Notes: generated by a model from the sequence alone, not told the origin. Positions 949 to 18,288 are shown, numbered from the stretch's first letter. The stretch is DNA of 20,323 bases from a virus (IMGVR_UViG_3300021963_000818:1-20323); one strand, 5' to 3'. A program made the numbers and translations.

Positions 949-1098
949 ATGCCACTAGAAAAAGATAATTCATATAAGCAAAGAGTTTTTGGGTCTTCAT
1001 CAGACCTTGAACCTATTGATAAAGAAAAGGTTGATCCTAAAGAGCTTTGCGACAAGCCAGACTGCACTTGTGCAGATGGAATTGACAAGAAACCATAA
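949..1098 (+). CDS. Small hypothetical protein, 49 aa, Cys-containing C-terminus
   Basis: ATG at 949 begins 1 nt after the previous stop, and TAA is at 1096-1098. The 49-residue product is hydrophilic and acidic/lysine rich, with no membrane segment. It ends in a small Cys cluster (CDKPDCTC) that could bind a metal, though this is a guess. It fills the gap between the ART-containing gene and the Dps-like gene with no wasted sequence and is likely translated by coupling. The last codons overlap the TTGACA motif that precedes the next gene. The function is not recognised. Confidence 0.5.
   Translation: MPLEKDNSYKQRVFGSSSDLEPIDKEKVDPKELCDKPDCTCADGIDKKP
1082..1087 (+). promoter_or_regulatory. 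TTGACA start-upstream motif, copy 1
   Basis: TTGACA lies 21 nt upstream of the ATG at 1103, inside the 3' end of the preceding small ORF. It belongs to a set of seven copies placed 19-23 nt before starts. This copy is the least typical, because no clear Shine-Dalgarno follows it. Confidence 0.4.
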
Positions 1099-1102
1099 CC
1101 TT

Positions 1103-1480
1103 ATGGAAAACGCCAATGGCGAGACGATTCTCACAACTTTTCTGACTTATCAGAATCAGTATAAGATATTTCATTGGCAGACAAGGAGTTATAGCCAACA
1201 CAAGAGTTTTGGCGAAATCTACGAGTCTCTTACAGAGAACATTGATGAATTTATGGAAACCTTTATGGGCAAGTATGGCAGAATCATTTCTGCTTCTACC
1301 TTTGACTTTAGCCTTGATAATTATTCGGAAGGCTTTGGGGAATACAACGATGAGTTTATTTCGTTCCTTTCTGATGAGCTACCGGGTTATCTGAACGAAG
1401 GCGACACGGATTTGTTGAATATCCGAGATGAGATTCTTGGAAGCGTGAACCAACTCAAATACCTCTTAACCTTGGTTTAA
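1103..1480 (+). CDS. Dps/ferritin-like protein (DUF5856-like)
   Basis: The product is 125 aa and largely helical. It carries the KIFHWQTRSYSQHKSFGEIY segment (residues 21-40) followed by an acidic helix, NIDEFMETFMGKYGR (46-60). This resembles Dps and related starvation-type ferritins, where an HW pair and the following D..E residues help form an iron site. I associate it with the phage/virus family DUF5856; that is from memory and not a search. Dps proteins bind iron and some protect DNA. Here it could act in the infected cell or be a virion component. The ATG at 1103 is chosen over an in-frame start at 989 because 989 would overlap almost all of the small ORF at 949-1098. The end (1480) is 4 nt before the protease start. 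Family fold is fairly likely; the role is unknown. Confidence 0.65.
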   Translation: MENANGETILTTFLTYQNQYKIFHWQTRSYSQHKSFGEIYESLTENIDEFMETFMGKYGRIISASTFDFSLDNYSEGFGEYNDEFISFLSDELPGYLNEGDTDLLNIRDEILGSVNQLKYLLTLV

Positions 1481-1484
1481 TAAT

Positions 1485-2693
1485 ATGCCCCTACTTACTC
1501 CAAAAAAAGGCGAGAAAAGCAAGGATTTCGTTGGTCGCTTCATGGGTCACGAAACCGCAGTTAAAGATTTCCCAGACACCAAGCAAAGGGCGGCAGTTGC
1601 CTACCAGACCTACCGGGACGCAAAGAAGAAGCAACGCAAGGAAGCTAGACTTGAGGAAGATTCCACGATTATTCCTAATGTGTATATCTTGAGCCAAGGA
1701 GAGGCCAGAGGCCACGATTTGTTCATCGACAAGACCTCCATTGAGAAAGCCTATGAGCTAATGTCCAACGCTCCTAATGGCGTTAAGGTTAAAATGAATC
1801 ACGGCTCTGGGCTTGAAGCAGTTCTTGGTTTTGCTCGCAACCCTCGCATTGAAGGCGATAAACTGATGGCAGACCTTCACTTGCTCAAAAGCTCCCCCCA
1901 CTACGGATTAGTTAAAGAGATGGCATCAGAAGCCCCCGACCAATTTGGGGTTAGCTTGGCGTTCTTGAATGAGTCCGAGACGATCAATGGCAAAGACTAC
2001 ATTCGCCCACAAAGGATTGAGTCTGCCGACTTGGTTTCCAGCCCTGCCAGCAATGAGAAGTTTAGAGACTTTCAAAGTAAAGATGTTGAGATGCTTGTTT
2101 TCGCAGTTGGAACAAAGTTCCGATGTTGGGAAGGTTACAAACCAGCAAAGGGCATTGAAGCCTATGAACCCGGCTCTTGCGTAAAAGCCGAAGAAAATTT
2201 GGGATACAATGCGGGGGGCGTTAGCATCCCCGCCGATATGCCACAAGCAGTTGTCGAGAGCGACCCAATACTTGACAAAAAAGGAGATAAAAATATGGAT
2301 AAGAAATATATGGATGAATTGAGCGAATTGAAAGCTCGCCTAGCGGCTCTCGAAGCCGCTATGAAACCCGCTGACGAAGCCGCAGATCAAGCCGAAGATT
2401 CGGCAGAAGGAAAGCCTGTTTCTGATGTTCCTTCGCCCGAAGATAAGGTTAAGAAGGACGAAAGCCAGATGGCCGAAAAGCTCAAAGCCGTTCTGACTGA
2501 ATTTGGCATCAAGCCCATTTCCGCTTCCCCGGTGGTTGAAGCCCCGGCGAAAGTCGAGCCCAAAACTTTTGAAGAACTCGTAGCCGCCCACAGCGATTAC
2601 AGCAATTCAAAGCTCAAGGCGATGAACGCCGTGATGCTCTCAAACCCCAAAGAATATGCCGAGGCTCGTAGCCGTGGCATCACAAAAATCTAA
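1485..2693 (+). CDS. Prohead maturation protease fused to scaffold domain
   Basis: The product is 402 aa. Residues 1-50 match a common phage head-protein lead (MP..PKKGE...DF.GRFM then FPDTKQRAAVAY). Residues 60-190 look like a prohead serine protease: KMNHGSG (His106), FGVSLAF (Ser157) and ESADLVSSPASN (179-190) are spaced as in such proteases. Catalytic roles are inferred. A Cys-x17-Cys segment follows (Cys214, Cys232). From residue 271 on the protein becomes a charged coiled coil plus a low-complexity acidic linker, ending in SNPKEYAEARSRGI, typical of scaffold C-termini. It would guide capsid assembly and then cleave scaffold and itself. It sits directly upstream of decoration and capsid genes, as expected. 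ATG 1485 follows the Dps-like stop by 4 nt. Confidence 0.82.
   Translation: MPLLTPKKGEKSKDFVGRFMGHETAVKDFPDTKQRAAVAYQTYRDAKKKQRKEARLEEDSTIIPNVYILSQGEARGHDLFIDKTSIEKAYELMSNAPNGVKVKMNHGSGLEAVLGFARNPRIEGDKLMADLHLLKSSPHYGLVKEMASEAPDQFGVSLAFLNESETINGKDYIRPQRIESADLVSSPASNEKFRDFQSKDVEMLVFAVGTKFRCWEGYKPAKGIEAYEPGSCVKAEENLGYNAGGVSIPADMPQAVVESDPILDKKGDKNMDKKYMDELSELKARLAALEAAMKPADEAADQAEDSAEGKPVSDVPSPEDKVKKDESQMAEKLKAVLTEFGIKPISASPVVEAPAKVEPKTFEELVAAHSDYSNSKLKAMNAVMLSNPKEYAEARSRGITKI
2272..2297 (+). promoter_or_regulatory. Internal translation start signal: TTGACA, Shine-Dalgarno and ATG inside the protease gene
   Basis: TTGACA (2272-2277) is followed by AAGGAG (2281-2286), then an in-frame ATG at 2295 after 8 nt. 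AAGGAG is among the best Shine-Dalgarno matches in the window. It sits exactly at the junction between the protease and the coiled-coil scaffold parts. Confidence 0.65.
2295..2693 (+). CDS. Nested scaffold protein from internal start (Nu3-like arrangement)
   Basis: This 132-residue product would share frame and stop with the protease gene, starting at its Met271. It contains the predicted coiled coil (MDELSELKARLAALEAAM), an acidic Ala/Glu linker and the scaffold-type tail. In phage lambda, scaffold Nu3 is made the same way from inside protease gene C, giving a high ratio of free scaffold to protease. Evidence here is the strong Shine-Dalgarno at 2281-2286, the TTGACA motif shared with other starts, and the match between start position and domain boundary. 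That it is used in vivo is an inference. Confidence 0.6.
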   Translation: MDKKYMDELSELKARLAALEAAMKPADEAADQAEDSAEGKPVSDVPSPEDKVKKDESQMAEKLKAVLTEFGIKPISASPVVEAPAKVEPKTFEELVAAHSDYSNSKLKAMNAVMLSNPKEYAEARSRGITKI

Positions 2694-2711
2694 CACAAAG
2701 GATTAAATACA

Positions 2712-3074
2712 ATGTCCACTCAAGTTGATAATGTTTTCCGCACATTCGGAACGGCTTCTGCTGTTTCGGCTTATCGTTTTGTTACCCCCGATACCACCAC
2801 GGCGGGTTTCGTAAATGTTGCGGTTTCTGGTGCTAACAAAACCATCGGCGTGACTCAAGAAGATGCTCCCGCTGGCGGTTTCGTTACAGTTAAGATGCTT
2901 CACCCCACCTTCTTCGCAACAGTTTCTGGAACTTGTGCGGTTGGCAATACCTTGTTCTTCGATGCGGCTGGCCAATGCACCACGCTTGCGGCTAACCTCT
3001 CGACTGCTGGTGTCGCTCTTGAAGCGGCCACGGCAACATCGGCGGTTATCGAAATTGCAGTTCCATTGTTCTAA
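2712..3074 (+). CDS. Head decoration (capsid cement) protein
   Basis: The product is 120 aa with no signal peptide and is beta-rich with many small residues. The pattern of repeated V/G/T strands (RFVTPDTTTAGFVNVAVSGA, then IGVTQEDAPAGGFVTVKM, then AVGNTLFFDAAGQC) resembles DUF2190-type and gpD-like decoration proteins that bind outside the capsid lattice and stabilise it. It lies between the protease/scaffold and the major capsid protein, the usual place for gpD. AAAGGA precedes the ATG, and a degenerate TTGACA-like CTAACA lies 22 nt upstream. Codons look strongly biased, like the capsid gene, which suggests high expression. Confidence 0.7.
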   Translation: MSTQVDNVFRTFGTASAVSAYRFVTPDTTTAGFVNVAVSGANKTIGVTQEDAPAGGFVTVKMLHPTFFATVSGTCAVGNTLFFDAAGQCTTLAANLSTAGVALEAATATSAVIEIAVPLF

Positions 3075-3112
3075 ACAATAGTAACAACAAACAAAAGAAA
3101 GAATAATATAAA

Positions 3113-4075
3113 ATGAGCTTTATCTCTGGTGGCACGACAATTCGTGCAGACATCAACCAAGCCCTAATCGAAGCCCCGGCCCAGATTGGGATGATTGGTG
3201 CTGACATTATGCCTCTCTTGCCCGTCTCGGCAAAGAGTGGTGTTTACCTCAAAGTGCAGACGGCTGATGCCGATCTCTTGAACGCTGATGCGGCCAAGCG
3301 TACTGCTGGTGCTGAATACGCTCGTGCGGTTCGGAAATTCACCTCCGATACCTACGATTGTATTGAAACAGGACTGGAAGAATTGTTGGACGATTCTTTC
3401 CGTTCGGATGCTAACCGCTTCTTCCAGATCGAGGCCGAAACTGCCAAGTTCTTGCTTCGCCAAGTTAAACTCTCGCACGAAAAGCGGGTGTCTGACTTGC
3501 TCTGGGCAACGACTACCCCCTTCACCACGGCTGATATTAGTCCCACGGCTAACTACACCGAAGCTAACTTGGCAACCATCAACGCCCCTGCGGATGTGGC
3601 GGCTGGCAAGCTCGCTTTGAACAAGCTCGGTTACGAAGCAAATGCCGTCATCATGTCGGCCAATGTCTATGAACGGGTTCGCCGGACTACCCTCTTGCAG
3701 AATCAGTTCTACGGAGTTGTTTCCAATACTGGCGGTCGCTTGCTTGATGAGAGCCAGATTGCAACCGCTTTCGGTGTGGATAAAGTCTACATTGGTCGTG
3801 CGGCTTACAACACGGCGAACAAAAACAAGTCATACTCTGGCTCGTTCATCGTTCCCGACACCAAGATTGTTGTTGCCAATGTCTCTAGTGGTCAGTTCAC
3901 CGCTGGTGGTTTGGGTCGCACCTTGGTGTGGTCTGATGACGCCCCCGGTGGTTTCGTCTCTGAAAGCTATCGTGACGAAGCTCGGCGTAGCAATGTTCTC
4001 CGTGTTCGCATGAACACCGCAGAGAAAGTCATTGACGCTAATGCGGCGGTTCGTATCACCACGACCTACAGCTAA
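3113..4075 (+). CDS. Major capsid protein
   Basis: The product is 320 aa and is expected to form the icosahedral shell with an HK97-like fold. It follows protease, scaffold and decoration genes and is followed by a strong terminator. The N-terminal part (RADINQALIEAPAQIGMIGA, then LPVSAKSGVYLKV) and the middle segment (YDCIETGLEELLDDSFRSDA) resemble major capsid proteins of the lambda gpE-like/P22-like broad group. The C-terminal half has VYIGRAAYNTA, GGLGRTLVWSDDAPGGFVSE and a final beta segment, as in those families. The start at 3113 lacks a good Shine-Dalgarno (AAGAAAG only), which is odd for such a strongly expressed gene. Confidence 0.85.
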   Translation: MSFISGGTTIRADINQALIEAPAQIGMIGADIMPLLPVSAKSGVYLKVQTADADLLNADAAKRTAGAEYARAVRKFTSDTYDCIETGLEELLDDSFRSDANRFFQIEAETAKFLLRQVKLSHEKRVSDLLWATTTPFTTADISPTANYTEANLATINAPADVAAGKLALNKLGYEANAVIMSANVYERVRRTTLLQNQFYGVVSNTGGRLLDESQIATAFGVDKVYIGRAAYNTANKNKSYSGSFIVPDTKIVVANVSSGQFTAGGLGRTLVWSDDAPGGFVSESYRDEARRSNVLRVRMNTAEKVIDANAAVRITTTYS

Positions 4076-4106
4076 AAATTGGTTCATTGGTTGGTTCCTT
4101 GAAGAA

Positions 4107-4140
4107 GGGGGAGGGCGAAAGCTCTCCCCCTTTTTCTTTT
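4107..4140 (+). terminator. Intrinsic terminator after the major capsid gene
   Basis: A 10-bp stem (4107-4116 with 4121-4130, GGGGGAG core, one G-T pair) closes on a GAAA tetraloop and is followed by TTTTTCTTTT (4131-4140). It starts 32 nt after the capsid stop codon. It probably ends or thins out late transcripts so that the capsid block is made in excess over downstream genes. Confidence 0.9.
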
Positions 4141-4144
4141 GACA
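4139..4144 (+). promoter_or_regulatory. TTGACA start-upstream motif, copy 3
   Basis: TTGACA begins in the T-tract of the terminator, 22 nt upstream of the ATG at 4161. AAGGA follows at 4152-4156. Confidence 0.45.
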
Positions 4145-4160
4145 CAATCACAAGGAAACT

Positions 4161-4457
4161 ATGGCAGACCTTACAAATTCCGAACCCTACTACGATCAAG
4201 TTTCCCACGCCGCCCGTCCCGGCACTCAATATGTAACCACAACTGGAACGGCTGTTAGTGCCTCTGCTGGTTTTGCTGGTATCTATATTGTTTCGGACGC
4301 AAAGTTTTCAAGCATTTCATCTGCTGTAACGGGATTTTCTGGGCTTGCTAATGCAACGGCGGCCTCTGCATCCACCATCAATGCAGGAATTTATCTGGCT
4401 GGAACTTGCACGGCTTTTTCTATTCATAGCGGAATTGTTCTTGGCATTGGTGACTAA
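4161..4457 (+). CDS. Small Ala/Ser/Gly-rich virion protein candidate
   Basis: The product is 98 aa. After a polar start (MADLTNSEPYYDQVSHAARP) it consists mostly of small and beta-branched residues (A, S, G, T, I), typical of a compact beta-sheet virion protein. No catalytic motif, signal peptide or clear membrane helix is seen. It lies just past the capsid terminator, has a good Shine-Dalgarno (AAGGAAACT) and the TTGACA motif, and is followed by a lectin-like gene. It could be a minor decoration or a neck component. The family is not recognised. Confidence 0.6.
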   Translation: MADLTNSEPYYDQVSHAARPGTQYVTTTGTAVSASAGFAGIYIVSDAKFSSISSAVTGFSGLANATAASASTINAGIYLAGTCTAFSIHSGIVLGIGD

Positions 4458-4479
4458 AAGTCTGTAAGGTTAAATCCTT

Positions 4480-5271
4480 ATGATGATTAAGGGTGGCATT
4501 CGGATTGGTGGGCTATCAAGAATATCTGGCTTCGATGGAGATGCCGCCGCATACTTTGATAGGGCTGGCGTTACTGACGCAACCGCAAAACAACAAATCA
4601 ACGCCTTTGTTGTGGGCGTAAAGGCACTTAGCCTTTTCAATAATATGGTCTGCTGGACATTGCGTTCAGCGCAGAACAAGGGAAGCGGAACGACTGCATA
4701 CAGCTTGGGTGGTCTTGGGACTTACAATGGAACGCTAACAAATGGGCCAACTTGGGGAACGGATGGAATTGTATTTGATGGAACAAACGATTATATCCCA
4801 ACAACTCTAACAAGCGGTTTTTCTGCTGTGTCAGTATTTGGAATTTCAAAAAAAGATGCAACTAGCCAAATAATGGCAGAAGTATTCAAAGATGATGAGG
4901 GAGTAAATCGAGAATGGACTATTTTTGCAGAATTGGGAGGATTTGTTCAAGGAAGGTTATTTAATCCATTAAACTCACAAAATACAGGCCCAGCAGTTAC
5001 GACTGATTTTAGGGTTTCTTCCCTAAGAGGAAGCGCAACAGTCAATAAATTTAGAATAAATAATGGATCAGATACAACTGCGGGAACTGGAACCCTATTC
5101 CAAGGATCTGCGGCAGTAACATTAGGTGCAAAATCAAGTGGAGGCGATAGATGGTTTAAAGGAATAATTGCTGGTGCAATAATTTTCAATACAGCTCTTT
5201 CCGACAGCGACACATCCTCAATTTACACCCTTTACAAAACCACACTCGGAACTGGACTTGGCTTGCCATAA
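4480..5271 (+). CDS. Concanavalin/LamG-like fold surface protein
   Basis: The product is 263 aa. The N-terminal helical part (YFDRAGVTDATAKQQINAFV, residues 25-45) is followed by a beta-rich part. That part includes LGTYNGTLTNGPTWGTDGIV and FDGTNDYIPT, a typical edge of jelly-roll LamG/concanavalin lectin domains, and ends with FKGIIAGAIIFNTALSDSD, the usual last strands of that fold. Such domains bind glycans or other surfaces. In phages they are found in head fibres, tail fibres and adhesins. Between the capsid genes and the glycan island, it may be a head-surface adhesin. The second half is more AT-rich than the capsid genes. Start ATG 4480 is followed at once by a second ATG; either may be used. 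Confidence 0.6.
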   Translation: MMIKGGIRIGGLSRISGFDGDAAAYFDRAGVTDATAKQQINAFVVGVKALSLFNNMVCWTLRSAQNKGSGTTAYSLGGLGTYNGTLTNGPTWGTDGIVFDGTNDYIPTTLTSGFSAVSVFGISKKDATSQIMAEVFKDDEGVNREWTIFAELGGFVQGRLFNPLNSQNTGPAVTTDFRVSSLRGSATVNKFRINNGSDTTAGTGTLFQGSAAVTLGAKSSGGDRWFKGIIAGAIIFNTALSDSDTSSIYTLYKTTLGTGLGLP

Positions 5272-5289
5272 TTAAAAACTAGAAATCCT

Positions 5290-5303
5290 ATTGAAATCCT
5301 AAA
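5290..5303 (+). repeat. 14-nt start-upstream repeat (ATTGAAATCCTAAA), copy 1
   Basis: This 14-mer occurs exactly twice, here ending on the first base of the ATG at 5303 and at 11745-11758 before the ATG at 11762. Shorter AAATCCT cores precede the starts at 4480 and 17692. No Shine-Dalgarno is seen at these starts. Confidence 0.45.
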
Positions 5304-6955
5304 TGAAACACGAACTGTCTATTTATCTCATAGCTGGAAATGAGGAAGCCTACATTAGCCGATGCTTGGAAAGCTTCAAACCGATTGCAAAGGAGTTTAT
5401 TATTGCAATCGCTAGGGGAAACCAGACCCCGGACAAGACCGAAGAAATCTGCAAGAGCTTTGGGGCAAAGGTTGTTCACTACAAAAATAAACGCATTGAT
5501 TGGCCTCACATTGACGATTTTGCGGAGGCTCGTAATTTGGCATTAGATAACTGCTCTTGTGAGTGGGCGGCTTGGGTGGATGCGGATGATGTGATGGCAG
5601 AGGGATGCGAGGAGGCGATTGATCGGGCTTTGGACGAAGCCGAAAAGCAAGACAAGTGGCTAGTGGCGATGCGTTACGATGTGGCTAATGCTGGCCTCAA
5701 ACCCCTGCGAGAAACTTTCAGTCGCAAGGGCAAATGCCGTTGGAGGAACCGGGTTCACGAAATGCTGGTGGCAAGCGAGCCAGACAAGTTGGTGGCAGTA
5801 GATCATACTTTTAGAATCCACAAGCCCCACGGCTATAAACAGACAAGTGCCGATAGAAACTTTCGCATCTTGGCAGATACCCTCGAACCCGCACCAAACT
5901 CACTCTACTACACGGCTCAAGAAGCCTACCTTTCCAATCAAGTCGAGCGTTGCATTGATTACAGCAAGAGAGCTTTAATGTTTCCAGAGCTAGACGATAC
6001 GCTCCGCTACGATGTGCTTTGCAATCTGGGACGATGCACCGGGAAAGACGAAAGGCTAAAATGGTTAGGCCAAGCAATCACGCTACAACCAGATCGCAGG
6101 GAGGCTCATTACTACACGGCAATGGAATATGCGAGTCGTGGAATTTGGAACAAGGCTTACGCTTCCAGCCGAAGTGCTATGACCCTGCAACGGCCAAAGA
6201 CCCACTATTGGAATCAAGTCGAGGATGTTTATGATTGGAAAGCCCTAGACCTTTACCAGATCGCTTGTGTGTGCGTAGGAAACACCGAAGAATCCGAGAA
6301 GATGCTAAAAATGTGGCCGACTCCTAAAATCACACTCGTTCACGCAACCAGAGGCAGACCGCAGTTAGCTTGGCAACGGCGTTATCAATGGCTATCGCTT
6401 GCCCAAAAGCCCCTAGAGATTCAATGGATTTTTGCAGTCGATCACGATGAGAAGGTGGACTATACCCCGCACCAAGCTATTAGAGTTAATCCCGGCGGAA
6501 TCATCAATGCTTGGAACGAAGGTGCAAAACACGCCAAAGGGGATGTGATTATCCAGATGAGCGATGATTGGTCTCCCTGCAAAGGCTGGGATGCCCTAAT
6601 TTTGAACGCTATTGGGGATACAAAGGCCGATAAAGTGCTGGCAGTATCAGATGGGCTTCGACAAGACAAACTGCTTTGCATGGCCATTTTAACGCAAAAT
6701 AGGCTAAACAAGCAGGGCTATATGTTCCATCCAGACTATCAAGAGTCGGACGGCATCTATTCAGACAATGAGCATACCGAGAGAGCCTATGCAGATGGGG
6801 TGGTTATCGAGGCCAAGAACATTCAGTTTAAGCACGAAAATCCGATGTTCACCAAAGGCAACCCAGACGAACAACTAAAGAACCACAACAAGCCAGAGTT
6901 TTACGATAAGGGCAAAGCCATTTATGAGAGACGCAAAGCAAATAATTGGGCGTAA
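5303..6955 (+). CDS. Double-domain glycosyltransferase (GT2-like, TPR linker, second GT-A domain)
   Basis: The product is 550 aa. Residues 1-175 form a family-2 GT-A domain: SIYLIAGNEEAYISRCLESF at the nucleotide-sugar fold, a DxD-type metal site VDADD (92-96) and NRVHE (149-153), typical of GT2 enzymes with TPR tails. Residues 195-335 are helical repeats (TPR-like). Residues 342-550 look like a second transferase domain (ITLVHATRGRP at its start, QMSDDW near 418-423 as metal site). The protein would transfer sugars from activated donors in the cytoplasm. It opens a run of six sugar-related or methyltransferase genes. Whether both domains are active is unknown. The acceptor could be a virion protein or a host surface glycan. 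Confidence 0.82.
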   Translation: MKHELSIYLIAGNEEAYISRCLESFKPIAKEFIIAIARGNQTPDKTEEICKSFGAKVVHYKNKRIDWPHIDDFAEARNLALDNCSCEWAAWVDADDVMAEGCEEAIDRALDEAEKQDKWLVAMRYDVANAGLKPLRETFSRKGKCRWRNRVHEMLVASEPDKLVAVDHTFRIHKPHGYKQTSADRNFRILADTLEPAPNSLYYTAQEAYLSNQVERCIDYSKRALMFPELDDTLRYDVLCNLGRCTGKDERLKWLGQAITLQPDRREAHYYTAMEYASRGIWNKAYASSRSAMTLQRPKTHYWNQVEDVYDWKALDLYQIACVCVGNTEESEKMLKMWPTPKITLVHATRGRPQLAWQRRYQWLSLAQKPLEIQWIFAVDHDEKVDYTPHQAIRVNPGGIINAWNEGAKHAKGDVIIQMSDDWSPCKGWDALILNAIGDTKADKVLAVSDGLRQDKLLCMAILTQNRLNKQGYMFHPDYQESDGIYSDNEHTERAYADGVVIEAKNIQFKHENPMFTKGNPDEQLKNHNKPEFYDKGKAIYERRKANNWA

Positions 6956-9017: not shown

Positions 9018-9678
9018 AACCATCATCTACCGGGAGCGTCTTGGGGATGTGCTTCGATGCCTACCAGCGGCCAAGTTGCTGTCGGATAAAGGCCACGAAG
9101 TTTTTATTGATTGCTACGAGCAATATGCGGGGGTTTTCGATATGGTTTCATATTGCCAACGAGGGAACAAGGGCGATCAGATAGACTTGCAGATTTGGCC
9201 TACTCGATACGATGCTTTTAGGGCAAGCCGTAAGCCTTGGCACGATTTTGTTTATGACCACCCAGAAATCAAGGATGCAGAAAAGACAAACATTGTTCTT
9301 GATAAACTAGACGAAAAGCCAGCCAAGGGGCTTCCAGAAACATACAACCTAGTTGCCCCATTTGGAGCAAGCCAAAGCGACTATCGAAACCCGCTTTTAA
9401 TCATTAAGGATGCAAGGCAACAACTAGGCAAAGACAACTTCTATGTCCTAACCCCGCCAGACATTAAGATTCAAGGGCTAGATACCTACACGGCTCCAAG
9501 CGTTGCGGAGATGGCAAAGGCTATCCGAGGAGCAGAGAACTTTTGGGGAATCAATAGTTCACCAATGATATTGGCTTCGGCAGTTAGGCAGGGAAAGGAA
9601 ACAATGTTTTTCCCACAAAGAAATGGGTTTGAAGCTGATAATGTTTGGGACTTTGACGGCCTAACAAAAGCTGATTGA
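9007..9678 (+). CDS. Heptosyltransferase-like (GT-B, GT9-type) protein
   Basis: The product is 223 aa, shorter than full heptosyltransferases (around 320-350 aa). The start IIYRERLGDVLRCLPAAKLL resembles the GDvl..tPa..aL motif of GT9 enzymes. NLVAPFGASQSDYRNP (about 115-130) and WGINSSPMILASAV (about 179-192) match their second domain, where donor binding occurs. It would transfer a heptose-like or other sugar. A TTG at 9001 is possible, but the ATG at 9007 is preferred. It overlaps the GT upstream by 11 nt and ends the island; its TGA stop lies in a TTGACA motif that precedes the next gene. Activity is uncertain given the shortened fold. Confidence 0.62.
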   Translation: MTAKTIIYRERLGDVLRCLPAAKLLSDKGHEVFIDCYEQYAGVFDMVSYCQRGNKGDQIDLQIWPTRYDAFRASRKPWHDFVYDHPEIKDAEKTNIVLDKLDEKPAKGLPETYNLVAPFGASQSDYRNPLLIIKDARQQLGKDNFYVLTPPDIKIQGLDTYTAPSVAEMAKAIRGAENFWGINSSPMILASAVRQGKETMFFPQRNGFEADNVWDFDGLTKAD

Positions 9679-9680
9679 CA
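9675..9680 (+). promoter_or_regulatory. TTGACA start-upstream motif, copy 4
   Basis: TTGACA contains the stop codon of the upstream gene and lies 19 nt before the ATG at 9694. AAAAGG follows at 9687-9692. A further TTGACA at 9707-9712 is inside the next gene and is the only + strand copy not at a start. Confidence 0.45.
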
Positions 9681-9693
9681 CACCTAAAAGGTT

Positions 9694-10011
9694 ATGTCTG
9701 GCACGATTGACACAACCTACTTCTCCACCGATTTGACCTATATGATCGGAGACCTATGGACTAGCGTTACCGGGCTTGGTTCCTCGGCGGTTTCTGCAAG
9801 CGTTACAGACCTTGGAACTGCACAAGAATTGGATATTGGTGGAGATGTGATTAGGATTACACAAAGTTTAGTGGTTAAGGCATCGGCTATATCTGCACCC
9901 GCAATCGGTTCTCTTTGCTCTGTTTCTGGCGTTGAGAGAATGATTGCTGGGTTCTCCAAAAGCACCGATGATATTTCTTACACCATTGAACTTGCCGACA
10001 TTACAACCTAA
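9694..10011 (+). CDS. Head-tail connector candidate
   Basis: The product is 105 aa with a helical start and a beta-rich C-terminal half (DVIRITQSLVVKASAISAPA, then CSVSGVERMIAGFSKSTDDI). That pattern and size are like head-tail joining or stopper proteins (gpFII-type), in which a small beta barrel blocks DNA exit. It is the first gene after the glycan island and stands directly before the tail terminator-like genes, the expected place for a neck protein. No direct motif proves the family. Confidence 0.5.
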   Translation: MSGTIDTTYFSTDLTYMIGDLWTSVTGLGSSAVSASVTDLGTAQELDIGGDVIRITQSLVVKASAISAPAIGSLCSVSGVERMIAGFSKSTDDISYTIELADITT

Positions 10012-11356: not shown

Positions 11357-11357
11357 C

Positions 11358-11363
11358 TTGACA
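11358..11363 (+). promoter_or_regulatory. TTGACA start-upstream motif, copy 5, with strong Shine-Dalgarno
   Basis: TTGACA (11358-11363) is followed by TAAAGGAG, whose AAGGAG core is the same as at the internal scaffold start. The ATG is at 11381, 23 nt from the motif start, the same spacing as at 2272/2295. Confidence 0.5.
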
Positions 11364-11380
11364 TAAAGGAGAACTTATCT

Positions 11381-11725
11381 ATGCCAGCCGTAACTATTGG
11401 AACTTCTGGGCTTGTTTGGGGTTGCACCGCAGAGGCTATTGGCCTTGTGCAGTCTTTTAGCGAAGCTCGTAACATTTCTAAATCAGAAATTACTAACAAT
11501 GTTGGGGAAATTGTTGGTATCTCTTACTATAACCCCACTACCGCTTACTCGCTATCCGTTGCCGTAACTGGTGCAATTTCCGTTACTGCTGGCGGTGCTT
11601 TGGCGGCACTCGCAAATGCGGCTACGGTTGGAACGACTCGGATTGATTCCTTGACGATCAACAAATCGCCCGATGCGTTTGTTACCCTCGATATCTCGGC
11701 TACTGGCTATCCGAATGTAAGTTAA
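11381..11725 (+). CDS. Tail tube protein candidate
   Basis: The product is 114 aa, beta-rich, with no signal peptide. FSEARNISKSEITNNVGEIV (26-45) followed by YYNPTTAYSLSVAVTG resembles the loop and strands of phage tail tube monomers and related small tail proteins. It has the best initiation signal of the tail block. Strong expression is expected for a tube subunit, and the gene lies two genes upstream of the chaperone pair, as in siphophages. It is shorter than most tube proteins (usually 140-250 aa), so the call stays moderate. Confidence 0.5.
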   Translation: MPAVTIGTSGLVWGCTAEAIGLVQSFSEARNISKSEITNNVGEIVGISYYNPTTAYSLSVAVTGAISVTAGGALAALANAATVGTTRIDSLTINKSPDAFVTLDISATGYPNVS

Positions 11726-11758
11726 TAGAGGCTCCAATCCTCTAATTGAAATCCTAAA
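11726..11758 (+). promoter_or_regulatory. Hairpin plus repeat copy 2 before the 11762 gene
   Basis: A 6-bp stem (11726-11731 with 11739-11744) precedes the second copy of the 14-nt repeat (11745-11758), just upstream of ATG 11762. There is no T-tract, so it is not a classical terminator. It may affect translation or RNA processing. Confidence 0.35.
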
Positions 11759-11761
11759 ATT

Positions 11762-12142: not shown

Positions 12143-12519
12143 GCATATCCCTAGAAGAAGAACTAAATTCATCGTTTGTATCCCCAGAGCGTGAGTTTAT
12201 GGGGGAGAAGTTGTCCCCATACACCGAGGGTTCTAGGTTGCTTTTATTGCAAGTAAGGGACGATAACGATTCATCCATTTACTTTATATGGGCGTTTATT
12301 TATATGCACATTCAGATTGCAAAGAACCGAAAGGATGCAATCAAATTGGCTTGGGATAAGAACTTGTTTAGAGAGAAAATTATTGAATATATTGAAGGGA
12401 AAAACGAATCTGATAGAGATTCCGCAACAAAAATCGTTTCTGCAATGGTCGATGAGGCACAAAAGGGAAGGGTTGAGGTAATTCAAACCCACGGATTACC
12501 CGAACTGGGAAACGCATAA
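12139..12519 (+). CDS. Tail assembly chaperone, G-like (zero frame)
   Basis: The product is 126 aa, acidic and helical. It lies two genes before the tape measure, where siphophages encode the chaperone pair that coats and folds the tape-measure protein. A canonical slippery heptamer 7 nt before the stop codon lets a fraction of ribosomes enter the -1 frame. The C-terminal region EKIIEYIEGK...ATKIVSAMVDEAQKG is typically helical. The gene begins in an ATGA overlap. Function is assigned from position and the frameshift signal rather than from sequence likeness. Confidence 0.72.
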   Translation: MSISLEEELNSSFVSPEREFMGEKLSPYTEGSRLLLLQVRDDNDSSIYFIWAFIYMHIQIAKNRKDAIKLAWDKNLFREKIIEYIEGKNESDRDSATKIVSAMVDEAQKGRVEVIQTHGLPELGNA

Positions 12520-12556
12520 CGCCAGCAGGGACGGCAAGTTTTGTGTTTCTGCTGGC
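12507..12556 (+). promoter_or_regulatory. Programmed -1 ribosomal frameshift signal
   Basis: The slippery heptamer GGGAAAC (12507-12513) is read in the zero frame as G GGA AAC. A 7-nt spacer follows, then a stem of GCCAGCAG (12521-12528) with CTGCTGGC (12549-12556) around a 20-nt loop. Two G-T pairs can lengthen the stem. The -1 frame is open from 12477 to its stop at 12725. Lambda uses the closely related GGGAAAG. Confidence 0.85.
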
Positions 12557-12725
12557 CGAAAAGACTGGATGGAGCGTGGAGTATATTTTATGGGAAATGC
12601 CTTTATCTTTATTGTGCCAAGCCAGCCATTCTTTTCTATGGTCTGCCGGGATGAAGTGTCGAAGGGTGTTGCGAGAGATTGGGAAAGATAGAGACGATCT
12701 TGAGAGGATGTTGGGCTTAACATAA
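12513..12725 (+). CDS. Tail assembly chaperone, T extension (-1 frame part of the GT-like fusion)
   Basis: This is the part added when ribosomes shift at 12507-12513; the full fusion runs from 12139 to 12725. The extension is about 70 residues. Its core LAEKTGWSVEYILWEMPLSL has the TGW..e.Il..Pl pattern often seen in T-type chaperone extensions. In lambda, G and GT together hold the tape measure and recruit tube subunits. The frame has no good start of its own: a GTG at 12543 lacks a Shine-Dalgarno and lies in the frameshift loop. Confidence 0.8.
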   Translation, partial: RITPAGTASFVFLLAEKTGWSVEYILWEMPLSLLCQASHSFLWSAGMKCRRVLREIGKDRDDLERMLGLT

Positions 12726-12735
12726 TTAAACTTAT

Positions 12736-13521
12736 ATGCTTACGATTAGCCTATTAAACCAAGCAAAGTTTGTCCATAAATTGCAACAATACCAGCAAGT
12801 ATCTCGTAAAAATATGGCCGATGTTATCAATAGCAAGCTCGGCGATGTTGCCGTTACAGCTATTGGAACTACATACCGAACAAACACGGCTCAAATTGCC
12901 TCTGAACTTCAAAGAATCGAAACCAAAACCAAAATAAAAAAGGTGTTTAAGCCAATAGGTTTTGACTCAAAAGGAAGGCTAAAGAAAAGGAAGATTGGTC
13001 AATTTTTAGCCAAGGAATCAAAATCAGTTGCTTATGTTGGGACATATAAGCTAGTTAATTGGTTGCTAAAAAACAGGGGACTTCCGACTCTTGGTAAAAC
13101 TAAACTTGGCCTAGGTGGATTGGGAATGGGAAATAAGGCCGGAACAATCGGGGCCTTGGCAAGAAGGCTTGTGGCCGGGAGAAAGCGATCTGTTAATTAC
13201 ATAAGGAACGGATGGGCGGCGGCGGCTTCGGTGTTTGGCAAAAGAGCCGCACTAACCAGAGGAGATTATAGTAAGGAATCCATCAAGCGTCTTGGTGGAG
13301 GAAGCAAGGCAGACTCAACTAAAGCACGAATGGAAGGAATTATATTTAATCACGCTGGGGACAAAGACACAAAGTATTACCCAGTAAGGAAAAGACAAGT
13401 TTCTGGTGCGGTAAAAGTTGGGCTACCCGGACTATTGGAAGCAATCGACAAGGTAATGAGTGATATGGCTGTTTATCTTGCCAGAAAGAACAAAGAACAG
13501 AGTGACAAGTTAGGGCTATAA
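12736..13521 (+). CDS. Basic hypothetical tail protein
   Basis: The product is 261 aa and strongly basic: KTKIKKVFKPIGFDSKGRLK at about 73-92, then a Gly/Lys-rich stretch LGLGGLGMGNKAG at about 124-136. No membrane helix or catalytic motif is evident. It sits between the chaperone pair and the tape measure, with 1 nt to the latter. The basic charge suggests nucleic-acid or acidic-protein binding, perhaps a minor tail or tape-measure companion. The family is not recognised. Confidence 0.5.
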   Translation: MLTISLLNQAKFVHKLQQYQQVSRKNMADVINSKLGDVAVTAIGTTYRTNTAQIASELQRIETKTKIKKVFKPIGFDSKGRLKKRKIGQFLAKESKSVAYVGTYKLVNWLLKNRGLPTLGKTKLGLGGLGMGNKAGTIGALARRLVAGRKRSVNYIRNGWAAAASVFGKRAALTRGDYSKESIKRLGGGSKADSTKARMEGIIFNHAGDKDTKYYPVRKRQVSGAVKVGLPGLLEAIDKVMSDMAVYLARKNKEQSDKLGL

Positions 13522-13522
13522 T

Positions 13523-15037
13523 ATGGCAGACGCTACTCAAAATCTAATGCTTCGAGTCCAAGGGGACAATAGTGGAGCCGATAAAGCTGTTGCTGGAACC
13601 ACAAAGGCCATTGAGAGGCTTCATATAAGTGGTCAAAAGGCTGGCGCAGTATTCAAAAATTTTAGTCGTAGTCTATCCGAGGCTAGAAATGCAAGCGATG
13701 TTGCTTCTGCCGCCGCTGATAGCTTGAGTCATATTTTGGGCAAAACATTAGGTGGTGCTATTGCGATTGGCGGATTTAAGATTTTCTCTGACCAAATCGA
13801 GCGAATGGGGCAAATGCTTAAAGATACAGCAACCGCCGCTCAAAAGGCTTTTGATGATATAGAAAAAGCTGGCAAGGCAATGAATTTAGATGAAGCAAAT
13901 GCCCAAGTATCACAATTAGACTCCTTTATTTTATCAACAGATAACAAACTTAAAGAGCTTAATAGAAGCCCATTTCAAAACTTTATTGCAGAAGCTACTG
14001 GTGCAAGAAAGCAATTAGAGGCTTTAGTTAAAACAAATAAGAAATTAAGAGACAGCAAACTCGCAGAAGGAATCATAAGCCAAAATCTAAATGATGAACT
14101 ACTAGATGGGTTAGACGCAGAATCTAAAAAGCTATATGAAATTGACGCTCAATATCGCAAGCGGTCTAAAATAGCAGAAACAATCACAAACCCACAAGAA
14201 TACGAAGCATTTCAGAAAGCAAGTGGCGATATAATGGCTCGTGAAAGAAACGCTCTTTTAGATAAGATGGCGAAAGATAGGAGAGATTCAGACTTCAAAT
14301 TTGCCAGACAAGTTTATGCTCAAGAGGTAAAGCTAGACAAGGATGCCGCAGACAGATCGGAAAAATTACGACAAGAGCTTATAGACAGAAGAATTGCAAA
14401 TCAGAATAGTGCATCCAAAGAGGAAATGTATGACATTGAGGAAAACGCAAGGCTTGAGGCTAAATTAGACCAAAACAGATTTGATCGACTAATGCGAGAT
14501 GCAAAAAGGGTTAGAGAAGAACAAAAAAAATATGCCGAAAACGAGCAAAAATATGGAGGCGGATTGCTTGGTGCATCACAAGCTGGTCGGCAAGCACTTG
14601 AAACAGCCCAAAAACAAAGAGCAGAAAAGGTAAGGCAAGAGAATTTTAAGGCTCAAGATGTTTATTTTAGCGAACAAGCCAAAGCCGAAAGCGCAAGAAC
14701 TGGAACCCGTGTAACGGCTCAAGATATGCGGGTTAGAGAAGCGCAAAGAGTTTCAGCCGCAAATATGCCAACTCTTGCAGAACAAGCTCAAGCTCAAGCC
14801 CAAGGGTTCACCCCAGAGCAAGTGGCAATAGCAAATGTAGCACAAAAGCAAACTGGTGGTGGATGGCTTAAAGACCTTCCAAACCAATCTTTAGATTGGA
14901 GCAATGGTGGCGCATCAAAACAACAAGGACAAAATGTTTCTGGTGGAAAGGGCGGGTTGATGGAAACACTCAATTCCATTCTGCAATCTTTATCATCTGC
15001 CCCACTTGTTACATCTGGCGCAGGGGGTTCTAAATGA
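13523..15037 (+). CDS. Tail tape-measure protein
   Basis: The product is 504 aa. The N-terminus (LRVQGDNSGADKAVAGTTKA) is typical of tape-measure proteins, in which the protein length sets tail length. A hydrophobic stretch (LGKTLGGAIAIGGFKIF, about 72-88) is followed by long charged, probably coiled-coil helices (about 180-400), with Gln/Ala-rich repeats near 400-435. About 0.15 nm of tail per residue would predict a tail of roughly 75 nm, a general rule and not measured here. It follows the chaperone pair and overlaps the next tail gene by 4 nt (ATGA). Confidence 0.82.
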   Translation: MADATQNLMLRVQGDNSGADKAVAGTTKAIERLHISGQKAGAVFKNFSRSLSEARNASDVASAAADSLSHILGKTLGGAIAIGGFKIFSDQIERMGQMLKDTATAAQKAFDDIEKAGKAMNLDEANAQVSQLDSFILSTDNKLKELNRSPFQNFIAEATGARKQLEALVKTNKKLRDSKLAEGIISQNLNDELLDGLDAESKKLYEIDAQYRKRSKIAETITNPQEYEAFQKASGDIMARERNALLDKMAKDRRDSDFKFARQVYAQEVKLDKDAADRSEKLRQELIDRRIANQNSASKEEMYDIEENARLEAKLDQNRFDRLMRDAKRVREEQKKYAENEQKYGGGLLGASQAGRQALETAQKQRAEKVRQENFKAQDVYFSEQAKAESARTGTRVTAQDMRVREAQRVSAANMPTLAEQAQAQAQGFTPEQVAIANVAQKQTGGGWLKDLPNQSLDWSNGGASKQQGQNVSGGKGGLMETLNSILQSLSSAPLVTSGAGGSK

Positions 15038-15714
15038 GTTCTATTATTGTTGGTTCGCCTATCTCTGGGGCAAAGGTTTTGCAAAGACAAGACTACCAGA
15101 GAGACATTAACGGACTCGAAACCATTACCGAAAACTATAAGATTCGGACAGAGGATCGACTTACTCTCGCCCCAGCAAAAGACACAACTCACGCTTCGTT
15201 CTCGTCATCTAGCTCTAAATACGCTAGGATGGCCGTAGAAACCATTAGCTTTAGCGAACAAGATGGCGGCCTTACATCTATGAATATTGTTTATGTGGGG
15301 CTTACTGCCTCCACCGGGTTGCCCAAGCCAGTAGTCAGAATGATTCCCACAACTGGTGCTGGCATCTATGGGCCGCCATTAACCATTGAAATTGAATTTG
15401 TAACTGATGTTACAGAAAGTCAGATTGCTACTGGTCAGCTAACCACCACATCCACGGCTCAAACAGACAATACCTCTAAAACTTTTGGTGGAAGAATCCC
15501 AACAATACTTAATGGATTAACGCTACCATCAAATCCAATTCAACCATTTAGCAAAATGTATGGTCTTGTTGGGGGAATAAATTATTTGGGTTATTGCCAA
15601 GATAATGTTGATTGCACACGAAGGGGTCAATTCTTGGTGGCTAGGGTTGTGTATAGGGAAAAACAAGATGCCTTTGGCGACCCAGCATTTGTTTCAAATT
15701 TCAAAAGAGTATGA
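15034..15714 (+). CDS. Minor tail protein, distal tail candidate
   Basis: The product is 226 aa and mainly beta, with a Ser-rich stretch (SFSSSSSKYARMAVETISFS) and a Cys pair near the C-terminus (YCQDNVDCTRRGQF). It follows the tape measure directly (ATGA), where distal tail or tail-tip proteins are encoded. No Dit signature is recognised. It is probably a structural component of the tail tip. Confidence 0.5.
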   Translation: MSSIIVGSPISGAKVLQRQDYQRDINGLETITENYKIRTEDRLTLAPAKDTTHASFSSSSSKYARMAVETISFSEQDGGLTSMNIVYVGLTASTGLPKPVVRMIPTTGAGIYGPPLTIEIEFVTDVTESQIATGQLTTTSTAQTDNTSKTFGGRIPTILNGLTLPSNPIQPFSKMYGLVGGINYLGYCQDNVDCTRRGQFLVARVVYREKQDAFGDPAFVSNFKRV

Positions 15715-15950
15715 CAAAAGAGCCTCGTCTTGTTGAGTTAAAGGGAAGCTCTCGCCTAGCCCTTGGTTTCTTCAATAGCCTTATTCGTAGAATTGAATGT
15801 ACCAAGCCCATTGCCGGAGATGGCGTCGTATTAACCGAAAAAGAGGACGGCATCCAAATTGCGGTGTCTGCAAGTTTTAATGTGGTAACTCTTAATGTTT
15901 GCTCCAATGGAACCCCAGCCACAATTCAAGTATATGGGCCGTCAGTCTAG
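15711..15950 (+). CDS. Small tail-tip protein
   Basis: The product is 79 aa, starting in an ATGA overlap with the gene upstream. It is beta-rich with one short hydrophobic helix (SSRLALGFFNSLIRRIEC). A short C-terminal segment (NVVTLNVCSNGTPATIQVYG) suggests a small beta domain. It lies between the distal tail candidate and the fibre. No family recognised. Confidence 0.45.
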   Translation: MTKEPRLVELKGSSRLALGFFNSLIRRIECTKPIAGDGVVLTEKEDGIQIAVSASFNVVTLNVCSNGTPATIQVYGPSV

Positions 15951-15952
15951 CA

Positions 15953-15958
15953 TTGACA
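15953..15958 (+). promoter_or_regulatory. TTGACA start-upstream motif, copy 6
   Basis: TTGACA is followed by TAAGGGG and then ATG 15974, 21 nt from the motif start. The nine bases TTGACATAA are shared with copies 5 and 7. Confidence 0.45.
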
Positions 15959-15973
15959 TAAGGGGCAGTTAAA

Positions 15974-17665
15974 ATGGCACAAAATATCGACTTCTTTATT
16001 GATGTGACCAATGGGACGCTTGTGGCGGCTGGCTCGGTCAAGAACGGAGTTCTCCCTACCTTTACCCGCAACGATACCTACAACTTCCGGGTGCGTCTCC
16101 AAGAGCGAGATACCAACAACTTCCTCCGTGATTTGGATACTACTGGGGCATCTCTAAAGCTAGGCATCGGTGGCATTGATGACGGCCCTAGTGATGGTCA
16201 ATTCAAACTCGTTCTAAACTCCGTCACATCCAATGCCATTTCATTTAACGCTACGACAAGCCAAGTTTATACTGCCATTTCTGCAATCGCTACTGGTGCT
16301 TCCGTTGCGTCTTATTCGAGCGAACCCTATTCCTATTTAATCACATCGGCCACGGCGAATACCGCAATGTCGTTTGGCGGGTCTAGCTTCACGATGTTCC
16401 CAACTAGCTCCGTTATCGTTAATACTCGAAGATTCCCAGCCTCCGGGGTGGCCGCCCAGCAAGTCATTAAACTCCGCAGAAATCCAGCCGTCTATTCGGA
16501 CTCTTTCACGGCATCATCGGTATCTGGTGTGGTTGCTCTTACCAGAACCCAAGTAGGCTCCACGACCCGCAACGAAATCTATAATCTTGCAGTTGGCCCG
16601 GATGCCGAGGGTGGTTCCGTTGTTCTGGCGTTTGGAACCAACACGACAACGGCTATCGCTATCGGGTCTAGTGCCGCTAGCTTTGCCGAAGCACTTACAT
16701 CCGTTACTGGCATCGGTGCAAACAATGTTTCCGTGGACTCTGGAAACAATTCTGGCGATTATTCAATTTCTTTCGTTCGTTCATTGGGATTACAAGCCGT
16801 CATAACCGCACTTACGCTGGATGCCTCTGGGGTTGTCTATGGAAACTATCTTGGCACATCGGTAACGATGGCAACGGCTGAATTGGACGAACTATTTGCC
16901 GAGGCTGGAACCGATACAATAGCTCCAACAATCGAGATCGAGCTTACCCAGAACGGAACGCCCAAGACAATTTATCAAGGGTCTATCAGCGTCCGCCGTG
17001 ACCTTATCACTACCGGGGCAGTAGTCCCCGCCGACCAAGCAAGCTATTACACCAAGGCCGAAGCCAACGCTCTCTTTGTTGAGGATTCCACATCTAATGT
17101 CGATGCAACAAATCGCAAGCTATACAATAGTTATGGAACAGCTTTCCTAGATTGGCAGAACAATAGCATTGGAACTGGCTCCACCATCCTAGACCTTTCT
17201 GGAACTGCCATCACGATTTCTGATGGCTATAACATTGGCATTGGTTCGACTACTGGAACCAAGATTGGTGTTAGCACAGCCTCAAAACTTGCCTTCTATG
17301 GCTCCACCCCAATCACACAACCCGCAAACATCAATGTTGTTTCTGGCCTAATCAATGTAGGATTGATAGCAAATGGGACAACCTACGGAGTGTTTCCACA
17401 ATCTCCAAGAACCATTACTACGCTAACATCTGTTTCATTTGGAACGCTAGCTGGCAACGATCAGCATTATAGGGATGTAGTTGTTACTGGTGCGGCTGTG
17501 AACGACATAGTTTTGGTTGGCTTACCTTCTGCAATTTCAGCAGGTGCAATTATTCAAGGGGTTGTCTATGCTTCAAATGTTGTTTGCTTGTCTTGCGTAA
17601 ATGCTGATAGCGTTTCTAGGGATGTGAACACGGCCACCTACCGAATCTCCGTCATCGGTTATTAA
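15974..17665 (+). CDS. Tail fibre or receptor-binding protein
   Basis: The product is 563 aa. The N-terminal third resembles tail-attachment domains (IDFFIDVTNGTLVAAGSVKN, then NFRVRLQERDTNNFLRDLDT, like BppU-type baseplate proteins). The middle is Ser/Thr/Gly-rich beta repeat. Residues near 370 carry YYTKAEANALF, a common fibre linker. Near 420 GTKIGVSTASKLAFYGSTPI matches a small beta fibre module found in many phage fibres, followed by a final beta domain. It would bind the host surface. It is encoded at the usual end of the tail cluster. Confidence 0.72.
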   Translation: MAQNIDFFIDVTNGTLVAAGSVKNGVLPTFTRNDTYNFRVRLQERDTNNFLRDLDTTGASLKLGIGGIDDGPSDGQFKLVLNSVTSNAISFNATTSQVYTAISAIATGASVASYSSEPYSYLITSATANTAMSFGGSSFTMFPTSSVIVNTRRFPASGVAAQQVIKLRRNPAVYSDSFTASSVSGVVALTRTQVGSTTRNEIYNLAVGPDAEGGSVVLAFGTNTTTAIAIGSSAASFAEALTSVTGIGANNVSVDSGNNSGDYSISFVRSLGLQAVITALTLDASGVVYGNYLGTSVTMATAELDELFAEAGTDTIAPTIEIELTQNGTPKTIYQGSISVRRDLITTGAVVPADQASYYTKAEANALFVEDSTSNVDATNRKLYNSYGTAFLDWQNNSIGTGSTILDLSGTAITISDGYNIGIGSTTGTKIGVSTASKLAFYGSTPITQPANINVVSGLINVGLIANGTTYGVFPQSPRTITTLTSVSFGTLAGNDQHYRDVVVTGAAVNDIVLVGLPSAISAGAIIQGVVYASNVVCLSCVNADSVSRDVNTATYRISVIGY

Positions 17666-17671
17666 GCCGAG

Positions 17672-17691
17672 AGCCGAAAGGCTGAAATCCT
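17672..17691 (+). promoter_or_regulatory. GNRA hairpin and AAATCCT core before the 17692 gene
   Basis: AGCC (17672-17675), GAAA loop, GGCT (17680-17683), then AAATCCT (17685-17691) run directly into the ATG at 17692. There is no normal Shine-Dalgarno in the free spacer; an AGG in the stem may be covered. Confidence 0.35.
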
Positions 17692-18288
17692 ATGGGTAAA
17701 GTTTTATCTGCACAAGGGAGTGGATATTATCCATCTTGCATACAAGAAGGCTCAAAACCAGATGACCCAGATTATCTTGACCTAACCATCGCACAAGGAA
17801 TGGCGTTGTATTGGAGGACTAGAAGATGGAGAGTTGATGCGTCTGGAAGTTTTTATTCTGATGGCAGAGGAACACCGGAAAATCCTATTGTATATTCTGG
17901 GGGCAGTGAACTTACCCCCTCTTTGACTATTACATCTGAAGAAAAACTTGTTTGTTTTGGGAATTACACATTTTACTTTAATGGCGATATCGGCGTTGAA
18001 TCTGTAACGCAGCCAATAACATTTACTTATGATTTTTCTGGCGGATATAAAACCAACGAAAAATTCTATCCATTTTTTGAGGTTGATTCAATTTATGTTT
18101 ATAATAGCTATCCGAGTGGTCAAAAAGTTGGAAGCACCAGATTTATTTTTAATAATTATACAATTGTAAAAGACCTTTACACAAACGACACCGGGGCAAG
18201 TGGAGATGTTTTGATTGATTTTACTTGCATCGAATACTGGTCTTATGGTGGCACTTACAACACCTCTACTGGTGAACCCTTGACATAA
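17692..18288 (+). CDS. Hypothetical virion protein, probable tail-tip component
   Basis: The product is 198 aa. A polar start with IAQGMALYWRTRRWRVDASG (about 33-52) precedes a beta-rich, aromatic part (FGNYTFYFNGDIGVES, then FEVDSIYVYNSYPSG). It is more AT-rich in codons than the fibre gene. It lies between the fibre and the lysis genes, so it could be a fibre chaperone, a tip protein or a receptor-binding accessory. No family recognised. The stop codon is part of the TTGACATAA motif of the next gene. Confidence 0.5.
   Translation: MGKVLSAQGSGYYPSCIQEGSKPDDPDYLDLTIAQGMALYWRTRRWRVDASGSFYSDGRGTPENPIVYSGGSELTPSLTITSEEKLVCFGNYTFYFNGDIGVESVTQPITFTYDFSGGYKTNEKFYPFFEVDSIYVYNSYPSGQKVGSTRFIFNNYTIVKDLYTNDTGASGDVLIDFTCIEYWSYGGTYNTSTGEPLT
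18280..18285 (+). promoter_or_regulatory. TTGACA start-upstream motif, copy 7
   Basis: TTGACATAAGGGCAGG lies upstream of ATG 18299, 19 nt from the motif start, and contains the previous gene's TAA. Confidence 0.45.

Follow-up and report, generated by a model that had tools for sequence, protein, structure and literature searches.

Translation initiation in bacteria is accounted for by pairing with a Shine-Dalgarno, by leaderless mRNAs or by unstructured A-rich leaders. One phage sequence that acts beside the Shine-Dalgarno is the epsilon element of T7 gene 10, TTAACTTTA, a translational enhancer positioned upstream of it and known from a single site. The nearest known kind to the element described here is the start-associated sequence (SAS) of the cluster K mycobacteriophages, and its function is unproven there too. 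The SAS is a 13-mer, GGGATAGGAGCCC, that contains AGGAG and lies 3-7 nucleotides (nt) before the starts of non-structural genes; it is found before 11-19 gene starts per phage genome, and a role in translation initiation was proposed for it in 2011 (PMC3203893). Papers from 2024-2025 still call that role undefined (PMC11373665, PMC12699233). The subject of this analysis is the hexamer TTGACA in a stretch of viral DNA, IMGVR_UViG_3300021963_000818:1-20323, referred to here as the window and analyzed over its full length of 20,323 bases, the gene content of which reads as that of a tailed-phage late region. The hexamer marks late-gene starts that are mostly uncoupled from the upstream gene, and it appears to be a translation-initiation signal that has not been described before.

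An earlier note on this DNA had placed eight copies of TTGACA on the plus strand. All eight were recovered by a program count of both strands, which added none. The copies are listed below, together with a hairpin that lies next to one of them.

1082..1087, plus strand: TTGACA, 21 nt before 1103, the start of the gene for a Dps-like protein (phrog_858); kept in 25 of 25 relatives.
2272..2277, plus strand: TTGACA, 23 nt before an in-frame internal start at 2295; kept in 49 of 49 relatives.
4107..4128, plus strand: terminator-like hairpin with a T-tract, 3' of the major capsid gene and shortly before the TTGACA at 4139; layout shared with relatives.
4139..4144, plus strand: TTGACA, 22 nt before 4161 and immediately 3' of the terminator-like hairpin; kept in 56 of 56 relatives.
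9675..9680, plus strand: TTGACA, 19 nt before 9694; kept in 36 of 36 relatives.
9707..9712, plus strand: TTGACA within the gene 9694-10011, 13 nt past its start; not start-associated.
11358..11363, plus strand: TTGACA, 23 nt before 11381, the start of a predicted tail gene; kept in 22 of 23 relatives.
15953..15958, plus strand: TTGACA, 21 nt before 15974, the start of a predicted fibre gene; kept in 11 of 12 relatives.
18280..18285, plus strand: TTGACA, 19 nt before 18299, the start of a 53-aa gene (phrog_9685); kept in 3 of 3 relatives.

The whole window thus contains eight copies, none of them on the minus strand; chance would provide 12.6 on the two strands together. The placement of seven of the eight at 19-23 nt before starts, as had been claimed, is well beyond chance (binomial P = 2.3e-14, with 34 ATG starts and 0.84% of positions qualifying). 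Indeed, among all hexamers of the window, TTGACA displays the strongest association with starts (rank 1). A degenerate copy, CTAACA at 2690, had also been put forward. Its letters include the stop codon of the preceding gene (ATC TAA C), together with which it is conserved in relatives, and hence it lends no independent support to the motif.

A search with the capsid protein yielded 76 related loci, and the counts that follow refer to the window plus these 76. A copy was taken as start-associated in this count when an ATG with an open frame of at least 45 codons followed at a distance of 17-25 nt. The coding strands carry 307 copies of TTGACA, 236 of which are start-associated as compared to 18.9 expected, and nine copies lie on the opposite strand. 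Among distinct near-start sites in the relatives, the distances are 19-23 and 25 nt, with hardly any other value. When scored per orthologous gene rather than per motif, the seven orthologous starts pooled have TTGACA in 224 of 226 copies, and all six of its bases are almost invariant. The start of p85, a small gene between those for terminase and portal, carries it in 25 of 25 orthologues; capsid starts (0 of 76) and phrog_673 starts (0 of 71) do not. Among whole genomes of relatives, 35-38 kb in length, start-associated TTGACA falls mostly at late genes. The lineage itself is large and consists of uncultured phages from lakes and soil. A collection scan seeded with one copy returned 29 newly fetched contigs with at least two start-associated TTGACA, and since 28 of these proved homologous to the window lineage, a general signal of unrelated phages was rejected. 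The hexamer is strongly depleted within genes and kept at the same genes in relatives, the two properties on which the earlier note had let its observation stand or fall. The mobile start module suggested in that note was not supported: in orthologous genes the hexamer is retained and the spacer to the ATG diverges, which indicates conservation in place and not copying.

Like the SAS, TTGACA is a short, asymmetric repeat that occurs in one orientation before many starts and is conserved at orthologous genes. It differs in that it is a 6-mer with no internal Shine-Dalgarno, does not conform to the 13-bp SAS consensus, and is positioned 19-23 nt before the start. In addition, it marks late virion genes and survives the loss of the Shine-Dalgarno. 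With the T7 epsilon element it shares the character of a short sequence just 5' of the Shine-Dalgarno and approximately 25 nt before the ATG, but the sequence is different, and epsilon is limited to one site and shows no genome-wide invariance.

Further relatives were fetched with the terminase and grouped by terminase identity. Of the TTGACA copies in relatives of 75-79% identity, 29 of 37 have an ATG 19-23 nt downstream, as compared to 1.7 expected. The count is 18 of 20 for 47-53% identity (0.8 expected) and 38 of 70 for 40-44% (3.1 expected), and in the last group GTG starts were also observed at 19 nt. The far genomes, with a G+C content of 49-61%, also keep the hexamer at the p85 gene and at the start nested in frame within the protease gene. 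Distinct spacers from TTGACA to the start number 124 in the close and intermediate relatives and 50 in the far ones, and 38 of the latter 50 measure 19 or 20 nt. Shine-Dalgarno 5-mers are present in 52 of 104 spacers from close relatives (9.6 expected), at about position -8, and in 11 of 20 from intermediate relatives. For the far relatives, the value is 2 of 50 (2.9 expected). A separate Shine-Dalgarno is thus a feature of the close and intermediate relatives only, and given that it falls to chance level in the far relatives while TTGACA is retained, the hexamer outlives it. Note that in close relatives the Shine-Dalgarno may begin 1 nt after TTGACA (TTGACAGAGGAGG, TTGACATAGGAGG), and consequently a transcript carrying that Shine-Dalgarno must start at or upstream of the hexamer's end. 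The register of the Shine-Dalgarno is spread equally whether measured from the ATG or from TTGACA. The hexamer itself has no match to the register of the 16S 3' end (AAGGAGGTGATC); the host's own 16S tail may differ.

A start was defined as uncoupled when the gap to the upstream gene was at least 10 nt or when it was internal. In the window, 10 of the 12 uncoupled starts carry either TTGACA or a second hexamer, AAATCC, and among the coupled starts 1103 alone has one. With crude gene calls for 11 close genomes, TTGACA is located at 46 of 210 uncoupled versus 9 of 290 coupled starts (P = 3e-11). For AAATCC, the counts are 38 of 210 and 14 of 290, respectively. The corresponding values for TTGACA in the far genomes are 16 of 64 and 2 of 78. 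AAATCC, often in the form GAAATCCTA, is situated mostly 7-16 nt before uncoupled starts that lack a Shine-Dalgarno, often 3' of a small hairpin. Its start-associated occurrences in the window are as follows.

4472..4477, plus strand: AAATCC, 8 nt before 4480; kept in 7 of 7 relatives.
5283..5299, plus strand: two copies of AAATCC (5283-5288 and 5294-5299) before 5303, the start of a glycosyltransferase-like gene; found in 66 of 66 relatives, 43 of which also have TTGACA 28-43 nt upstream.
11749..11754, plus strand: AAATCC, 13 nt before 11762 and 3' of a small hairpin; kept in 22 of 23 relatives.
17685..17690, plus strand: AAATCC, 7 nt before 17692 and 3' of a small hairpin; kept in 5 of 5 relatives.

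Two genes whose context differs between relatives serve as natural experiments, and both are consistent with the link to uncoupled starts. TTGACA is found before the protease gene (18 of 44) in genomes with another gene in front, and is absent in those listed genomes in which the Dps-like gene lies directly upstream. For the orthologues of the tail gene at 11381, TTGACA is positioned 45-75 nt upstream in 16 relatives, before a short leader open reading frame of 10-11 aa that ends at the gene's ATG and is coupled to it; the hexamer lies at the usual distance before the leader. Two unrelated leaders, MQNTLSNEVSI and MINNFFEVSI, were observed to end at the tail-gene start (TAATG), each 3' of TTGACA (L020:10021, L021:9087 and others).

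The positional rule, the link to uncoupled starts, the invariance and the independence from the Shine-Dalgarno are together best fitted by an element that acts at the RNA level. Of the functions that the earlier note had entertained, an extended translation-initiation element is accordingly the one best supported by position, uncoupled starts and invariance; that it acts in RNA, promotes translation and is read by a factor is what we infer. We give about an even chance to TTGACA being a start-associated element that acts in RNA and lets ribosomes load independently. UUGACA would be read in the mRNA at the upstream margin of the stretch occupied by the initiating ribosome (14-23 nt 5' of the start codon), and would help the 30S subunit to load directly at late starts that termination-reinitiation cannot serve. 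In close relatives, it would work beside the Shine-Dalgarno, and in the distant GC-rich relatives, it would work alone. A distance bounded at 19-23 nt with a variable spacer fits a ribosome, whereas a promoter needs no such bound. The upstream edge of the ribosome site is also where an operator might be expected if a translational repressor or autoregulator blocked the ribosome at late genes, in the manner of T4 RegA, which shuts off genes by blocking the ribosome. One hexamer common to many genes, defining a specific late-gene set, would agree with such a role. A positive role, however, agrees better with the retention of the hexamer at uncoupled starts and in relatives that have no Shine-Dalgarno, and there is no specific need for a repressor where coupling is absent, such that we regard an operator as very improbable. 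If independent ribosome loading is correct, a sharply defined hexamer at a fixed distance would represent a further route of bacterial translation initiation and a second, cleaner example of the start-associated sequences known in mycobacteriophages since 2011.

TTGACA is the exact -35 consensus, and the main rival to an RNA-level element is a late promoter element read in DNA, where the hexamer would recruit RNA polymerase (with a host sigma or a phage-modified one) and place transcription starts near each late gene, possibly giving leaderless or near-leaderless late mRNAs. A -10 partner was sought at all eight copies in the window, and none was found. Logos of 174 distinct spacers from close, intermediate and far relatives, extending from 22 nt upstream to 44 nt downstream, likewise contain no second box. 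They show TTGACA with a T in front of it (frequency 72-91% for the intermediate and far sets); the close relatives add the purine run of the Shine-Dalgarno. Conservation around the hexamer covers 6-7 bp only, and the ATG follows 13-17 nt behind it. An ordinary -35 box at 19-23 nt would put the transcription start within the coding sequence. The reading as a plain sigma-70 -35 box, which the earlier note had already dismissed, was therefore rejected on two counts, the missing -10 partner and the nearness of the ATG. The near-invariance of all six bases at orthologous starts is unlike that of usual -35 boxes, and the Shine-Dalgarno sequences that adjoin the hexamer also argue against a promoter. 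A scan by Pfam or PHROGs of 39 proteins from the window and a near-complete relative of 37.7 kb (terminase and capsid not included) revealed no RNA polymerase or sigma factor. A promoter of approximately 20 bp for a T7-like phage RNA polymerase was also rejected, as no such polymerase is present among the 39 proteins and the conservation extends over 6-7 bp only. We consider a DNA-level late promoter element unlikely.

Several observations nevertheless weigh against an RNA-level element. The first is the avoidance of TTGACA on both strands away from starts, as measured by codon-shuffle tests on non-element copies. In close genomes, there are 21 sense copies versus 97 expected and 1 antisense copy versus 57. 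The intermediate genomes have 1 versus 19 in sense and 0 versus 13 in antisense, and the far genomes 2 versus 20 and 4 versus 15, respectively. Antisense avoidance is not naturally predicted by a purely RNA-level signal and favors a promoter. As proof of a DNA-level reading, it is not decisive, given that other hexamers are avoided more strongly: TGTCAA ranks 15th of 3,719 non-palindromic hexamers in avoidance under a Markov model, and many hexamers are avoided, mostly restriction-type sites. Secondly, the copy at 4139 and several of the relatives' sites lie directly 3' of a terminator-like hairpin, beyond which a new transcript would need to start, and this favors a promoter. Thirdly, a folded-RNA test gave a weak result, with accessibility rising slightly in the close relatives and not at all in the far ones. 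Fourthly, with crude gene calls for whole genomes, the majority of uncoupled starts carry neither TTGACA nor AAATCC. Finally, a candidate for the reader was sought, and no RNA-binding family rose above noise in the proteins scanned.

The strand counts also bear on cleavage of the RNA. A host or phage endoribonuclease might cut UUGACA and thereby free late mRNAs with short leaders, processing sites of this type having precedents in those for T4 RegB and T7 RNase III. The short, fixed distance to the start, the rarity of sense copies inside genes and the association with late operon genes would all be accommodated. In the close relatives, however, the antisense depletion is at least as strong as the sense depletion, which cutting of the sense mRNA does not explain. 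Furthermore, an upper bound on the distance would have no clear reason, and no candidate nuclease was found. We judge a processing site to be improbable.

The same hexamer is encountered in Verrucomicrobia phage P8625 (NC_029047; L325), a cultured phage with a similar head-gene order and a terminase identity of only 22%, and there too it precedes late genes. TTGACA is located exactly 36 nt before four P8625 starts (5412, 10736, 15558 and 22406). At three of these sites, 17 nt separate it from TATTGG, TATTGG or TATCTG, and a further 7 nt lead to the ATG. The spacers contain an inverted repeat, GTATCC-N7-GGATAC, which is imperfect in places, and across the P8625 clade 11 sites with a GTATC...GATAC spacer repeat keep the total of 36 nt, once 39. 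On the basis of this geometry, the P8625 hexamer is most likely a -35 box, and the three sites are likely leaderless sigma-70 late promoters with an operator, which speaks for a promoter in the window lineage and against an RNA-level element. The window lineage differs in having the hexamer at 19-23 nt and not 36, with no -10 sequence. Moreover, the low terminase identity makes P8625 a distant comparison, and its TTGACA is far less strand-biased (14 versus 6). The P8625 and window-lineage elements are different devices, which may share an origin.

The hosts of the window lineage are likely Verrucomicrobiota, as judged by the similarity of its terminase to that of the Akkermansia phage Moulinsart. 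Among cultured phages, Moulinsart has the highest terminase identity across a long stretch, and it lacks the TTGACA pattern. Two scans of genome contigs for a host returned no capsid relative and only two distant terminase matches, both in delta-proteobacterial metagenome-assembled genomes. In the Opitutaceae TAV5 plasmid, TTGACA occurs 20 and 18 times on the two strands with no association to starts; a host-wide feature is thus unsupported by this plasmid, which is, however, too small to speak for other hosts. Because neither the Akkermansia phage nor the Opitutaceae plasmid has the pattern, the reader of UUGACA, which might be a ribosomal component, would more likely be a phage-made late factor. 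Akkermansia muciniphila and another verrucomicrobium have been listed as "SD-scarce" (SD, Shine-Dalgarno; PMC10783764), and in such hosts, if they are indeed Verrucomicrobiota, a start signal of this kind would have a purpose. We tentatively propose, as a possibility that we hold with some doubt, that this phage lineage starts late-gene translation via UUGACA approximately 20 nt upstream, recognized on the 30S subunit not by the anti-Shine-Dalgarno but by some other reader, and that the hexamer has replaced the Shine-Dalgarno entirely in the GC-rich branch, in SD-scarce and probably verrucomicrobial hosts.

The genes of the window include those for the Dps-like protein (phrog_858), a protease-like protein, a 120-aa phrog_673 protein (named head scaffolding) and the major head protein (phrog_1005), as well as glycosyltransferase-like, tail and lysis genes. 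The earlier note had treated 2295 as a gene start. It does have TTGACA 23 nt upstream, but it is not an ordinary start, being internal to and in frame with the open reading frame 1485-2693. The feature that it opens is the following.

2295..2693, plus strand: predicted scaffold-like protein (132 aa, predicted N-terminus MDKKYMDEL); its start lies inside the protease-like open reading frame 1485-2693 and in the same frame.

The C-terminal part of the protease-like protein is charged and coiled-coil-like, and initiation at 2295 is predicted to yield a scaffold-like C-terminal product from the protease gene. The same nesting is present in a far relative (G016), whose internal ATG has TTGACA 20 nt upstream. 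Lambda C/Nu3 is the known example of a scaffold made from an internal in-frame start within a protease gene. The two arrangements are alike in that an in-frame internal start gives a C-terminal scaffold-like protein, and they differ in that here the internal start bears the shared TTGACA, in 49 of 49 relatives. For annotation, TTGACA would pinpoint true starts, including hidden ones such as the predicted scaffold start at 2295.

Other short sites are avoided to an extreme degree in the same lineage. In the window and genomes G001-G010 (L199-L218), GCAGCA occurs 0 times of 92 expected, ACCAGG 0 of 72, GGACC/GGTCC 5 of 370, ACGT 34 of 679 and CATG 100 of 1257; CGCG, GCGC and CCCGGG are also avoided. 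From this pattern, the hosts would seem to have abundant restriction systems. In the near-complete relative L201, the scan indicates a DNA modification protein of the Mom-like type (Pfam PF25680, phrog_1384); it names no member, and the 200-aa gene at 15376-15978 is the most likely one. Additionally, G002:18561-19742, which extends across L201/L202 near the terminase genes, appears from its sequence to encode a fusion of a ParB-like domain with a DNA methyltransferase (DPPY motif), and partial homologs are present in far relatives.

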